From Thermoclostridium stercorarium subsp. stercorarium DSM 8532 (GTDB lineage: Bacteria; Bacillota; Clostridia; DSM-8532), in NCBI RefSeq assembly GCF_000331995.1, contig NC_020134.1, forward strand, positions 1,835,465 through 1,899,464: DNA of 64,000 nt. The letters are read 5' to 3'. Each line of letters starts with the position of its first letter. Position 1 is the stretch's first letter. The notes under the pieces are model-generated. The model was not told the DNA's origin, did not search any database, and saw nothing but the letters and a program-made list of their open reading frames with translations. Below are positions 29,919 through 47,596 of this stretch, in pieces. A program made the translations under genes and the position numbers.

Positions 29919-30827
29919 TTGCTGCCAAATAATGAATTCATAAGGCTTTCCCTGGAAATAAACCTTTTCTTTCAAAGACTTATGAAGGAGCATCTGTTCT
30001 TTATTGAAACGGCTTTAGCACCGGTTAACGCCGACTACATAGCCGAAGCCAAAAACCTGAAAGAAGAATTTGAACGCCTTCTGGCCGAAACGGTGAGTTA
30101 TTCCGACCGGGCAATCTCAGTAAACGTTATCAGTTCAAATGAACTTGTTACCCCATTTACACTGACGGCTGAAGAATTGACATCGGCTTTAACAGGCGCG
30201 GAACTCAACACCGAAATAACAAAAGCCGAATACCGGTTAACAGGGCTCACTTCAATACCGGCTGATTATTACCGGGAATCGTCGGAAAATATAGTGGGTG
30301 ATCTCAATCAAAGAACCATTAATCTTCTGGAAGAAGTAATTGCATTTCAAAAAAGAATATCCACCCTTTCGGGAGAATGCAGGATATTTATAACTCTTTA
30401 TAACGAGTTGCTGGAGCATGTCACCCACGAAGCTGATTATTACGCCGGACTTTTAAAATCGCTGCAGAAAAAGGAGCTTCCGCGGAAAACCCTTTGCGAG
30501 GAGCTTAATTTCTGGAATCATCTGATGGGAGAACATGCATTGTTTATTGACGGAATGATGGATCCGTCCGAAAGAAAACTCAAGGAAACAGCGCGGAACT
30601 TTGCCGAAGGTTTTGAAAAACTGGCAAGGGACTGCGTAAGGACTGCAGAATATCAAATAAAACGGGACAGCTTAAGCCTTACCGAAGCAATAAGGAATTT
30701 CAAAAGGGCGGGAACCGACGGAATACTAAGATGCAGAATAAAATCCATAATTCCTCCCCTTCTGGCCGATCACGTATTGCGTGAAGCGAACCATTATTTA
30801 AGACTGCTTGAAATGATTAACGGATAA
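29919..30827 (+). CDS. DUF2935 family protein
   Basis: A 302-residue all-helical soluble protein with a TTG start behind GGGTGGG. It contains two tandem DUF2935 units, each a four-helix bundle resembling ferritin or hemerythrin, with acidic/histidine motifs: KEHLFFIETALAP in the first unit, HVTHEADYYAGLL in the middle and GEHALFIDGMMDPSE in the second. The EH pairs suggest a metal site. The family is widespread in Clostridia and Bacilli, and its biochemical role is not established. Flanked by terminators on both sides, so transcribed alone. Confidence 0.88.
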   Translation: MLPNNEFIRLSLEINLFFQRLMKEHLFFIETALAPVNADYIAEAKNLKEEFERLLAETVSYSDRAISVNVISSNELVTPFTLTAEELTSALTGAELNTEITKAEYRLTGLTSIPADYYRESSENIVGDLNQRTINLLEEVIAFQKRISTLSGECRIFITLYNELLEHVTHEADYYAGLLKSLQKKELPRKTLCEELNFWNHLMGEHALFIDGMMDPSERKLKETARNFAEGFEKLARDCVRTAEYQIKRDSLSLTEAIRNFKRAGTDGILRCRIKSIIPPLLADHVLREANHYLRLLEMING

Positions 30828-30938: not shown

Positions 30939-32156
30939 TTACAATGTGTAACTGGACGCATTGATTATTTTTGAATCGCTCAAATCTCCCAAATTGGGTA
31001 TAATTGCGCTGAGTATTCCCTTTATTCCCCTGCCCGAATCGTTAATATTAACCACATCTTCCGATACTTCCTCAACGGCGCTTCGCTGCCCGGGGAAACA
31101 GTTTATGTTAACACAATCTTTGAATTCAACGCGCTCAAGTATCAGTTCTGGCGGCACATCCTCGTCTATGCTTACATTCACGCAGTCAATAACCGTGATT
31201 CCGTCCCCGTTCTGATCCAGCATACGCCTGTCGATTTTAAGGCTTACCTTATCGATTATGCATTTTCCGCGCACAAACATTAAATTTCCATAGTGGGCAT
31301 CAATTTTACAAAATGACTCTTCAAGGGATTTAGGTATTCTTACAGTCCCGGTTACATGGAGATATTCAATCTTTTCAAGTAAATCGGCGGCTTTCAAATC
31401 AATCATTAAATCGCCGTTAATAAAAAGTTTCGGGCCATATTTTATCAAAAGTGCCCGGCTGAGCTCGGAACTTCCGTTTACAAAACTGCAGCCGTCGGGA
31501 ACGGTGACTATTCCGGTTGTATCGTCGAACAGCTGCAAAGCCGCATCAACGAGGGACTCTGCAATTACTGCGTTTTTTGTGAGAAATCTCACGCCTCTGT
31601 TCACCATCTCTGCAATATCCAATGAATTATCAAGTATAACCACACGCTTTCTGGCAAAATATCTGGCATTCTTACACCTTTTAATAAACGTCCTGTCCAC
31701 AACGAAAGTATTTTTAAGCAAAATGGCGTCATCAGGATAGGTTTCTATACTGCCGTTCACTTTAAGCGAGCCCAGATATGAAGACAAACTTTCGGGGTAA
31801 ATTACCATCCCGTTAACATAAATCCCCACAAACCGTTCGAGTGCCTTTTCGGCCCCCGGTTCTATTTCCAGAGCTCCGTTAACCATCAGATACACTTTTT
31901 TGCCACCGGGATCCGATGCCGATATAACAAAACGCCCGTTCTGAATCATAATATCCACATCGGAATCCTTGTCCAATTCCACGACATCGGAACAGTTAAG
32001 GGCCACACCGTAACTGTGAAGAAGGTTCTTGGACTCGGGTGTAATAAGAATCACAGCCGAATTAATTGTAATATTCTCATAATTGGCAAGGGTTTCTTCC
32101 TTTACGTTTCTTGCGTCGCAAATGGCAGCATTGATAATAAGTTTGTTTTTTGGCAT
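30939..32156 (-). CDS. Repeat protein of unknown function, partner of an ECF sigma factor
   Basis: A 405-residue protein that I cannot assign. GGAGG precedes ATG 32156. It has no signal peptide or membrane helix. It is built from irregular short beta units in which hydrophobic strands end in VNG or similar turns, such as GIYVNGMVIYPESL, LKVNGSIETYP, LFINGDLMIDL and LHVTGTVRIPKSL. The pattern suggests a beta-solenoid, or a leucine-rich-repeat-like fold, and recalls polymer-forming scaffold proteins. It lies 17 bases after the sigma factor gene, so the two are co-expressed. A classical anti-sigma factor would have a membrane helix or zinc motif, which this lacks; it may be a target, a structural protein or a cytosolic regulator of the sigma factor. 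Confidence 0.8.
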   Translation of the reverse strand: MPKNKLIINAAICDARNVKEETLANYENITINSAVILITPESKNLLHSYGVALNCSDVVELDKDSDVDIMIQNGRFVISASDPGGKKVYLMVNGALEIEPGAEKALERFVGIYVNGMVIYPESLSSYLGSLKVNGSIETYPDDAILLKNTFVVDRTFIKRCKNARYFARKRVVILDNSLDIAEMVNRGVRFLTKNAVIAESLVDAALQLFDDTTGIVTVPDGCSFVNGSSELSRALLIKYGPKLFINGDLMIDLKAADLLEKIEYLHVTGTVRIPKSLEESFCKIDAHYGNLMFVRGKCIIDKVSLKIDRRMLDQNGDGITVIDCVNVSIDEDVPPELILERVEFKDCVNINCFPGQRSAVEEVSEDVVNINDSGRGIKGILSAIIPNLGDLSDSKIINASSYTL

Positions 32157-32173
32157 AATAATACCTCCGGATA

Positions 32174-32626
32174 TTAATTTTCATTAAAATATTTTTTTAA
32201 TCTCGCCCGTGCGGAAGCGAGTCTGGCTCTTACCGTAGAAGGCGGTATGCCGAACATCTCTCCAAGTTCGGTGGAGTTATACCCATGCAAATACCTAAGC
32301 AGAAACAGTGTACGTTCGTTTTCGGGAAGGTGACAGCACATCATTTGTACCATGACTTTTGAATAATCATCCTCACTTGCCGGTTCCTGAGCAGGCTCAA
32401 TGCTCTTTGCCAGTCTTCTTACATGATCAATAAATATGTTCTTTGCGGTACGGTATAGCCACACTCTGCACTTTGCTTCAGGCAGTTCACTGAGTATGTC
32501 GGCATTTGCCAGAGCGCGAAGGTAAGTTTCCTGGACAATGTCCTCAGCAAACGCCACGTCATGGGAAAGTGAGACACAAAAGCGCAATAATTCATTATAG
32601 AACCTGGAATAAAGCAATTTAATCAT
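32174..32626 (-). CDS. ECF-type RNA polymerase sigma factor
   Basis: A 150-residue sigma-70 family member with only regions 2 and 4. Region 2 includes DVAFAEDIVQETYLRA and KCRVWLYRTAKNIFIDHVRR; region 4 includes LPENERTLFLLRYLHGYNSTELGEMFGIPPSTVRARLASARAR, with the helix-turn-helix that binds the -35 box. It directs polymerase to a small regulon, often after envelope stress. No membrane anti-sigma gene is adjacent, only the repeat-protein gene after it. Auto-regulation is common in the family, but I cannot identify its promoter here. Confidence 0.92.
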   Translation of the reverse strand: MIKLLYSRFYNELLRFCVSLSHDVAFAEDIVQETYLRALANADILSELPEAKCRVWLYRTAKNIFIDHVRRLAKSIEPAQEPASEDDYSKVMVQMMCCHLPENERTLFLLRYLHGYNSTELGEMFGIPPSTVRARLASARARLKKYFNEN

Positions 32627-32812
32627 AATGTCTCTTCCTTCACCCTGTGCCCGTTATCCGTCATGTGCATGTAACACATTTTCACATAACTTCTGTGCCA
32701 CGGCGATGAATTTTGCATACAAATTCATCTTGGGAATATTTTCGATAATATAACGAATAAAAAGGAAAAAGTGTTGATATGAAAAAAATTTTTTAAATAT
32801 TAATTATAAATT

Positions 32813-45947: not shown

Positions 45948-47111
45948 TTATTTAACATATCCATCAAGAAATTCTCTAAAATCATTATTTATTTCATATC
46001 TCGAAATAAAGCCTATGTTTCTGTAATACGGCGAATCATAATACAAACCATTTTTGTTATAAATCCTTATAGTTACCGGATTTGCCAGTGCATCATCGGA
46101 ATATCCTCTTAACGGCTGCACCGTTCCTGAGCCTGCAGCAGCCGTACCTGAAAATGCGGAAGACGACAAGGGTGTATCTGCAGATATACCTCCGGTATCA
46201 CCGTTACCAGTTAAAGGCAGATCTTCTGCGGTGGTTGTATCATCCGGTGCTGTACCGGGCCTGATACCGGTTTGACTGCCGGTTTTATCAGGAATATCGG
46301 TTTCCGGTACGGTATAATCCGATTCAATGCCACTGTTGCCGGTATTATTATAATTGAAAAGAATCTCAAAATATCTGTTGCTGGAATTCTTTAAGACCGA
46401 ATAATAATTATAGAACAGTTCGATTTCGTCCCTGTCGGTCATTTCAGCAATTATATCGGTATATCCGTTTTGCTTGCTCTGTTCAGAATGACGTATAAAC
46501 TGAATTTTTGATATATCGTCGGCCTTATATATGCCAAAAAGTTTCAGATATTCAGCCGAATCTTCATCCTGATTGTTATTATAGCTATCAAATACAAAAA
46601 ATCTGAAAAGCTGATACTCATTACCTTTTTTTACCGCAACAACAGCTTCGCAGCCTGCCGGAATATAATGGTACACTTCGCCGCCTAAAAGGCTTAAATC
46701 CGGGCTGGTTTCAATAATGCCAATCTTATCACCTAAATCGTTTTCGTTAATCACCGAAGGCAGTCCGAATTCCTCCCTTAAATCATCTGAAAGCAGTATA
46801 TAATGCCTGTCGGAAAGGCAGAACTGGTTCACGATCGGGGCCACTGCATCTTCTCTTCCCGTGTCTGAATAATCAGTCCCTCTATGATCGCGGAATAAAT
46901 TTTTACCATGGTTACCCGACAGATTATAAGTTAAAAGCCCTGCTACAATCACAACCACCGTGGCCATGGCAGGAATTGTTTTTCTGAAATTAAACGGCAT
47001 ATACATTCCCTCTTTTCCGCGTTGTTTTAAAATATTGTCAAGCATCCTCTTTTTTGCGGCTTCATCGGGTCTAATTTGCCCAAAAGCCGTCTTCAGGTCT
47101 TCTTTTTTCAT
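45948..47111 (-). CDS. Putative membrane anti-sigma factor
   Basis: A 387-residue protein. The ATG overlaps the sigma factor stop codon as ATGA, so translation is coupled. The cytoplasmic N-terminus (about 1-45, KTAFGQIRPDEAAKKRMLDN) would bind the sigma factor. One membrane helix follows (about 46-64, TIPAMATVVVIVAGLLTY), then a large outside part with a low-complexity Thr/Asp/Ser/Gly stretch at about 265-335 and a C-terminal globular segment. The opening matches the DUF4179-like anti-sigma proteins of Clostridia in arrangement. The signal sensed is unknown. Confidence 0.75.
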   Translation of the reverse strand: MKKEDLKTAFGQIRPDEAAKKRMLDNILKQRGKEGMYMPFNFRKTIPAMATVVVIVAGLLTYNLSGNHGKNLFRDHRGTDYSDTGREDAVAPIVNQFCLSDRHYILLSDDLREEFGLPSVINENDLGDKIGIIETSPDLSLLGGEVYHYIPAGCEAVVAVKKGNEYQLFRFFVFDSYNNNQDEDSAEYLKLFGIYKADDISKIQFIRHSEQSKQNGYTDIIAEMTDRDEIELFYNYYSVLKNSSNRYFEILFNYNNTGNSGIESDYTVPETDIPDKTGSQTGIRPGTAPDDTTTAEDLPLTGNGDTGGISADTPLSSSAFSGTAAAGSGTVQPLRGYSDDALANPVTIRIYNKNGLYYDSPYYRNIGFISRYEINNDFREFLDGYVK

Positions 47112-47596
47112 TTTTCATCACCTTCCAGTTCAATTTTAAGAATTTTCCTGCCATTGTGCAGATAACCTCTTATTGTGGACGGATTTTTCCTCAGTATTTC
47201 AGCTATCTCCACCGTTGAATATCCTTCATAGTAATACAGATATATCGCCATTTTATATTTGGGGGGAAGTTCCATAACCTTTTTTAAAATACTGTCAGAT
47301 GCAAAAGACTGCTCAATCTCGGTTTCCGGAACCTGATTTATGCCTATTGTCTTTGACCACCAGTGCCTGAAATGATCCTTGCACAGATTGGTCGCCGTTC
47401 TTATAAGCCAGGCTTTTTCATGCTCTTCACTCCGAAAAACCGTCCTGTCCTTTATAAGCCTTAAAAAAGTGTTTTGAACCATATCCTCAGCGTCATGCCT
47501 GTTTTTCATAAACAAAAAACAAATCCGGTAAACAGTGTCCACATGCCTGTTGTAAATTTGTATAAGTTCCTCACTCGTACGACATGAACCCTTCAA
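47108..47596 (-). CDS. ECF-type RNA polymerase sigma factor
   Basis: A 162-residue sigma-70 family protein starting at TTG 47596 behind AAAGGGGGAAG. Region 2 has DAEDMVQNTFLRLIKD and KAWLIRTATNLCKDHFRHWW; region 4 has LPPKYKMAIYLYYYEGYSTVEIAEILRKNPSTIRGYLHNGRKIL. It resembles the SigV/SigW-like group. It is held inactive, most likely, by the membrane protein whose gene overlaps its stop by four bases. This is a classic sigma/anti-sigma pair, unlike the locus at 30939-32626. Confidence 0.93.
   Translation of the reverse strand: MKGSCRTSEELIQIYNRHVDTVYRICFLFMKNRHDAEDMVQNTFLRLIKDRTVFRSEEHEKAWLIRTATNLCKDHFRHWWSKTIGINQVPETEIEQSFASDSILKKVMELPPKYKMAIYLYYYEGYSTVEIAEILRKNPSTIRGYLHNGRKILKIELEGDEK

Follow-up and report, generated by a model that had tools for sequence, protein, structure and literature searches.

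ECF sigma factors and their anti-sigma factors are usually encoded in one autoregulated operon, in which the gene for the sigma factor is followed by that for its regulator. In the canonical form of this two-gene unit the partner is a membrane anti-sigma factor, as in the pair found at positions 45948-47596 of the 64-kb stretch of DNA analyzed here (the window), where the hydropathy of the partner, itself without a Pfam match, reaches 1.91 at residues 46 to 64, a membrane-helix-like segment. Other partners are cytosolic: by prediction, about 35% of the class I anti-sigma factors are soluble (PMC7406223), and a review of non-canonical ECF systems covers soluble partners of the ZAS, NepR, CfrX, ECF121-like, and Asp23 types, none of which is described there as a solenoid (PMC8999054).

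The locus described in this study resembles several of these systems and differs from each of them: (i) the soluble ZAS systems (RpoE/ChrR, SigR/RsrA, and SigH/RshA) likewise combine an ECF sigma factor, an adjoining gene for a cytoplasmic partner, and autoregulation, whereas the present partner is a repeat solenoid of 405 amino acids with neither the zinc anti-sigma motif nor the helical anti-sigma domain; (ii) in ECF286 and ECF292 the sigma factor also adjoins a soluble, non-canonical putative anti-sigma factor (PMC8999054), which belongs to the Asp23 family, whereas none of 23 members of the present partner family has an Asp23 match in Pfam; (iii) SigX/CfrX of Pseudomonas (ECF102) likewise involves a soluble putative anti-sigma factor of an unusual type, but CfrX is described as a small protein in a mechanosensing complex (PMC8999054), in contrast to the large solenoid found here, which has no conserved porin or channel neighbor. 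The original prediction for this locus had regarded a sigma factor controlled by, or controlling, a cytosolic scaffold as a new regulatory arrangement. A cytosolic partner as such is not new (PMC7406223, PMC8999054); what is new is a partner family without an anti-sigma domain, its strict linkage to the sigma factor, a conserved and probably autoregulatory promoter, and a third small gene, of which the original prediction had taken no notice.

Results

The genes for the sigma factor and for the 405-residue partner were both found as open reading frames where they had been predicted (Table 1), the partner gene, present in a single copy in this genome, beginning 17 bp downstream of the sigma factor gene. 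The sigma factor matched Sigma70_r2 (PF04542; E value of 4e-13, 49 bits) and Sigma70_r4_2 (PF08281; E value of 1e-12, 48 bits) above the curated Pfam cutoffs and, with these two regions alone and fewer than about 200 amino acids, has the composition of an ECF sigma factor. Its orthologues are 148 to 165 amino acids long, except for a frameshifted copy in one genome (G024), and no extension of the ECF41, ECF42, or ECF56 type follows region 4 in the intact proteins. The convergent neighbor at 29919-30827 encodes a DUF2935 protein with two matched stretches, which is shared with the loci of G024 and G026 and absent from the other loci.

Table 1. Features of the sigma factor-partner operon in the window
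Feature	Positions	Strand	Remarks
ECF sigma factor, 150 aa	32174..32626	-	Sigma regions 2 and 4 only, without C-terminal regulatory extension
Solenoid partner, predicted soluble, 405 aa, no known family	30939..32156	-	
Ribosome-binding site of partner gene, GGAGG	32164..32168	-	
ECF-type promoter, AACACTTTTTCCTTTTTATTCGTTATA	32749..32775	-	Kept upstream of every sigma-partner operon

The partner gave no Pfam match at an E value of 1 or below, no meaningful NCBIfam match, no match in PHROGs or PADLOC, and no credible PDB match by sequence, so that the lack of a known domain, claimed originally, held also against these collections of characterised families. Across the 23 members of the family, neither an anti-sigma domain nor any other credible match was obtained with Pfam. 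PDB profile matches to pentatricopeptide repeat proteins were rejected, as they covered one 26-residue stretch and no stretch passed alone. The features of class I anti-sigma factors were all lacking, namely, the Pfam domain, the zinc motif HxxxCxxC (0/23 members), and the N-terminal helices, the N terminus being predicted by AlphaFold2 as strands. A membrane helix was not found either, the maximum 19-residue hydropathy being 0.98 in the window member and 0.67 to 1.74 over the 23 members. The claims that the partner has no zinc motif and no membrane helix, and that it differs in the latter respect from the partner at 45948-47596, were therefore upheld.

AlphaFold2 yielded a strand/helix solenoid for the partner, with a mean pLDDT of 86.2 and a pTM of 0.68 from 7 sequences and of 89.9 and 0.73 from 23 sequences, the order of the short strands and helices being identical in both runs. 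The strongest hydropathy period, averaged over the alignment, was 22 residues, and [VIL]NG occurred five times, compared with 0.5 expected from shuffles. The model fits a strand-turn-helix solenoid made of units of about 22 residues and LRR-like in outline. A VNG-type beta-repeat solenoid had been predicted; the solenoid is supported by AlphaFold2 and by the 22-residue period, but a short helix in most of the units means that it is not purely beta, and the VNG motif is confined to some of the units. Residues 379 to 391 are disordered and are followed by a conserved terminal strand, INAxxYxL. With LRR solenoids the partner shares the length and the strand-turn-helix form of its units as well as conserved N/G positions; on the other hand, no LRR match was obtained with Pfam, and no significant match to the fold was found with Foldseek among solved or viral structures. 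The top Foldseek matches were of the LRR type, including LRR and FNIP proteins, with E values of 0.04 or worse and TM scores of about 0.2 or lower; these, like the matches to TIM proteins and aldehyde dehydrogenases, were set aside as not significant.

Cysteines 13, 325, 348, and 353 are kept in 19 to 22 of the 23 partner members and are missing from the most divergent one (G474). Cysteines 325 and 348 are spaced by about one repeat and may have structural, metal-binding, or redox-active roles.

Searches for the partner, which covered the window's own family, class, and phylum and one further large family, returned 23 full-length members, including that of the window, from six families of Bacillota (f1, f27, f32, f50, f61, and f116). 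A sigma factor of the same kind lies directly upstream on the same strand at all 23 loci, separated from the partner gene by -35 to +144 bp (three loci with overlaps), while the remaining neighbors vary from locus to locus, close relatives excepted, and no further gene is conserved beside the pair across families. Separate profile searches with the sigma factor and with the partner in the window's family found both in 7 genomes and neither in 25, the sigma factor scoring 162 to 237 bits in the seven partner-bearing genomes and the next best sigma factor 92 bits; the naive probability of this co-occurrence is 3e-7, the true figure being weaker owing to the relatedness of the genomes. The same profile pair found the sigma factor together with a full-length partner in 10 of 200 genomes of f27; in G874 of that family the sigma factor gene is 44 bp away from the end of its contig, and a partner gene would be expected beyond that end. 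Neither an orphan sigma factor nor an orphan partner was seen with both profiles in these two families, and sigma factors that lack the partner as a neighbor, which the original prediction had named as a reason to doubt the pairing, are thus not common. Conservation of the two-gene unit across families and its pattern of presence and absence support the view that sigma factor and partner form a real, conserved, and exclusive unit.

Common departures from taxonomy were seen in the trees of the sigma factor and the partner: in both, G018 (f1) groups with f50 and G267 (f32) groups with G856 (f27), and the mirror-tree correlation (r) is 0.80 overall and 0.90 within f27. These parallel exceptions suggest that the two genes move together. 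No relatives were found on plasmids or viral contigs. Short partial matches to the partner in G055, G201, G453, and G839, the first two without a sigma factor neighbor, were treated as chance. At the G024 locus (L010 12122-12567) the sigma factor reading frame is frameshifted next to an intact partner gene. Together with the shortening of the small-protein gene in this genome, described below, this may reflect decay of the system or an error in the draft sequence.

Upstream of the sigma factor gene, a promoter of the form AACACTTT-N11-tCGTTATA or a close variant, in the style of AAC-type -35 and CGT-type -10 motifs, was found at 23/23 loci; in dinucleotide shuffles the pattern appeared in a mean of 0.04 and a maximum of 1 of the 23 regions, a contrast that is somewhat overstated, as the regions tested had themselves served to define the pattern. 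Its identity across families whose proteins share only 30 to 40% identity leaves little room for a chance origin, and the promoter of the operon is the only match in the window. The presence of an ECF-type promoter at the head of all the operons makes autoregulation probable, with the sigma factor reading its own promoter. The distance from the promoter to the sigma factor start ranges from 47 to 438 bp across loci and is 149 bp in the window, where the leader (32627-32775) holds the inverted repeat GATGAATTTGTATGCAAAATTCATC. The longest distance is that of G018 (L014 5142-5580), where, unlike at other loci, an extra 89-codon reading frame lies between promoter and sigma factor gene.

When 20 carrier genomes were searched with one mismatch allowed, exact matches to the promoter appeared at the operons; three more were found outside them, each in a member of the window's genus (G000, G026, and G024). 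In the window's genome and a close relative (G000 and G026), this sole additional exact match stands before a gene of about 100 codons, and in G024 (C72:20131-20157) about 11 codons of the reading frame of this small protein are left behind the promoter. A homologous gene of 77 to 90 codons is the third gene of the operon, after the partner, in three other genomes of the family; profiles built from either group retrieved the other among 14,604 peptides (E values of 2e-12 and 1e-4; in reverse, 4e-7 to 3e-5). The small protein, which has no Pfam match, was found in 5 of the 7 genomes of the searched family that carry the module and, credibly, in 0 of the 25 that do not; in most lineages, no copy of it was detected in the vicinity of the module. 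The fact that the same promoter is kept even where the gene is elsewhere in the genome is good evidence that the small gene belongs to the regulon. Just before the start codon, the three small-gene leaders (L105 1501-1575, L104 1448-1527, and L092, minus strand near 1450-1527) share ACGAATGG(A/G)GG, whose ACGAATG is the reverse complement of the CATTCGT (or close variant) that overlaps the -10 element.

Most of the other one-mismatch sites lie inside open reading frames or have no convincing gene behind them, and in eight genomes scanned with an alternative form of the motif the extra matches did not exceed those of a reversed-pattern control. Statements on the regulon are based on low-mismatch promoter searches, a whole-genome search with three mismatches having given fewer matches than its reversed control and hence being uninformative. 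With fixed spacing and one or two mismatches, the operon and the small gene were the only strong targets that emerged; weaker targets of the sigma factor may exist, since the search was limited to fixed spacing and few mismatches.

Discussion

We consider there to be an even chance that the partner acts as an anti-sigma factor or sensor of a soluble, non-canonical type. The order of sigma factor and then partner behind one autoregulated promoter, together with strict co-inheritance, matches that of sigma/anti-sigma pairs: the partner is encoded with the sigma factor and inherited with it. Moreover, because the sigma factor is without a regulatory extension, its control has to come from outside the protein. 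The mechanism that we propose would comprise the following steps: (i) the sigma factor would direct RNA polymerase to the conserved promoter before its own operon; (ii) sigma factor and partner would be produced together, giving a positive feedback loop, as the conservation of the promoter suggests; (iii) the solenoid would bind the sigma factor and hold it inactive, acting as a cytoplasmic anti-sigma factor or sensor whose fold differs from that of the anti-sigma domain; (iv) a cytoplasmic cue, presumably a ligand, a partner protein, or a redox or metal state, would alter the solenoid and release the sigma factor; and (v) in part of one family, the protein of about 80 to 100 amino acids that is encoded in the operon, or preceded by another copy of its promoter, would serve as an accessory or output of the loop.

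Several observations argue against an anti-sigma role: the partner has no anti-sigma domain or zinc motif, and its N terminus is modeled as strands; no other strong targets emerged from the promoter searches, although a sigma/anti-sigma pair should have further outputs; and the conserved cysteines are not universal, as G474 illustrates. The fuller proposition is that a soluble LRR-like solenoid, responding to a signal in the cytoplasm, holds and switches the sigma factor in a closed feedback loop, the regulon being almost only the operon itself and the small protein. It would amount to a new class of sigma factor control and is put forward as tentative, with a likelihood somewhat short of even.

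The small size of the regulon makes a serious rival of the possibility that the solenoid and the protein of about 100 amino acids are not controllers but products or effectors of the sigma factor, for instance a scaffold or receptor made in bulk, the sigma factor being switched otherwise (by transcription, a small ligand, or proteolysis) and its regulon being essentially its own operon and the small gene. LRR-like repeat proteins are usually binders or receptors, and the top Foldseek matches, though not significant, are of that type; the only exact promoter matches found are those of the operon and the small gene, and in eight other genomes matches outside the operon did not rise above the control level. 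The sigma factor would, however, then need a separate controller, for which no other gene conserved beside the pair across families presents itself, and invariant one-to-one linkage with joint transfer is more typical of a regulator that binds the sigma factor. We regard this explanation as unlikely, if far from negligible.

Exclusive linkage and co-inheritance would fit any binding partner, including a positive cofactor that binds the sigma factor or the holoenzyme and is needed for activity or stability. Such an arrangement is rare among ECF sigma factors, and nothing in the sequences favors it, which leaves it improbable. The confinement of the small protein to module-bearing genomes, where its gene either comes third in the operon or has a copy of the promoter at another site, could instead point to the solenoid as the hub of a partner switch, contested by the sigma factor and by the small protein or some other protein not yet seen; but in most lineages the small protein was not detected beside the module and is hence unlikely to be a core part, and, having no Pfam match, it shows no sign of being a sigma mimic of the PhyR type, so this reading is highly doubtful. 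That the two genes are mere chance or operon neighbors with no functional tie is contradicted by their linkage at every locus amid otherwise changing neighbors, by their matching presence and absence, and by the conserved promoter, and hardly deserves consideration.

Literature searches yielded no description of the sigma-partner pair, although it may already be covered by a numbered ECF group whose partner has not been named. Probably, the two proteins are a regulator and its controller that belong to a hitherto undescribed kind. To conclude, a soluble solenoid strictly linked to a sigma factor would widen the set of folds able to control one, and, with the pair, the promoter, and a candidate target all defined, the system is easily tested. 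If the regulon consists of the operon and one small gene, it would represent a closed loop of a rare sort, producing its own regulator as output.
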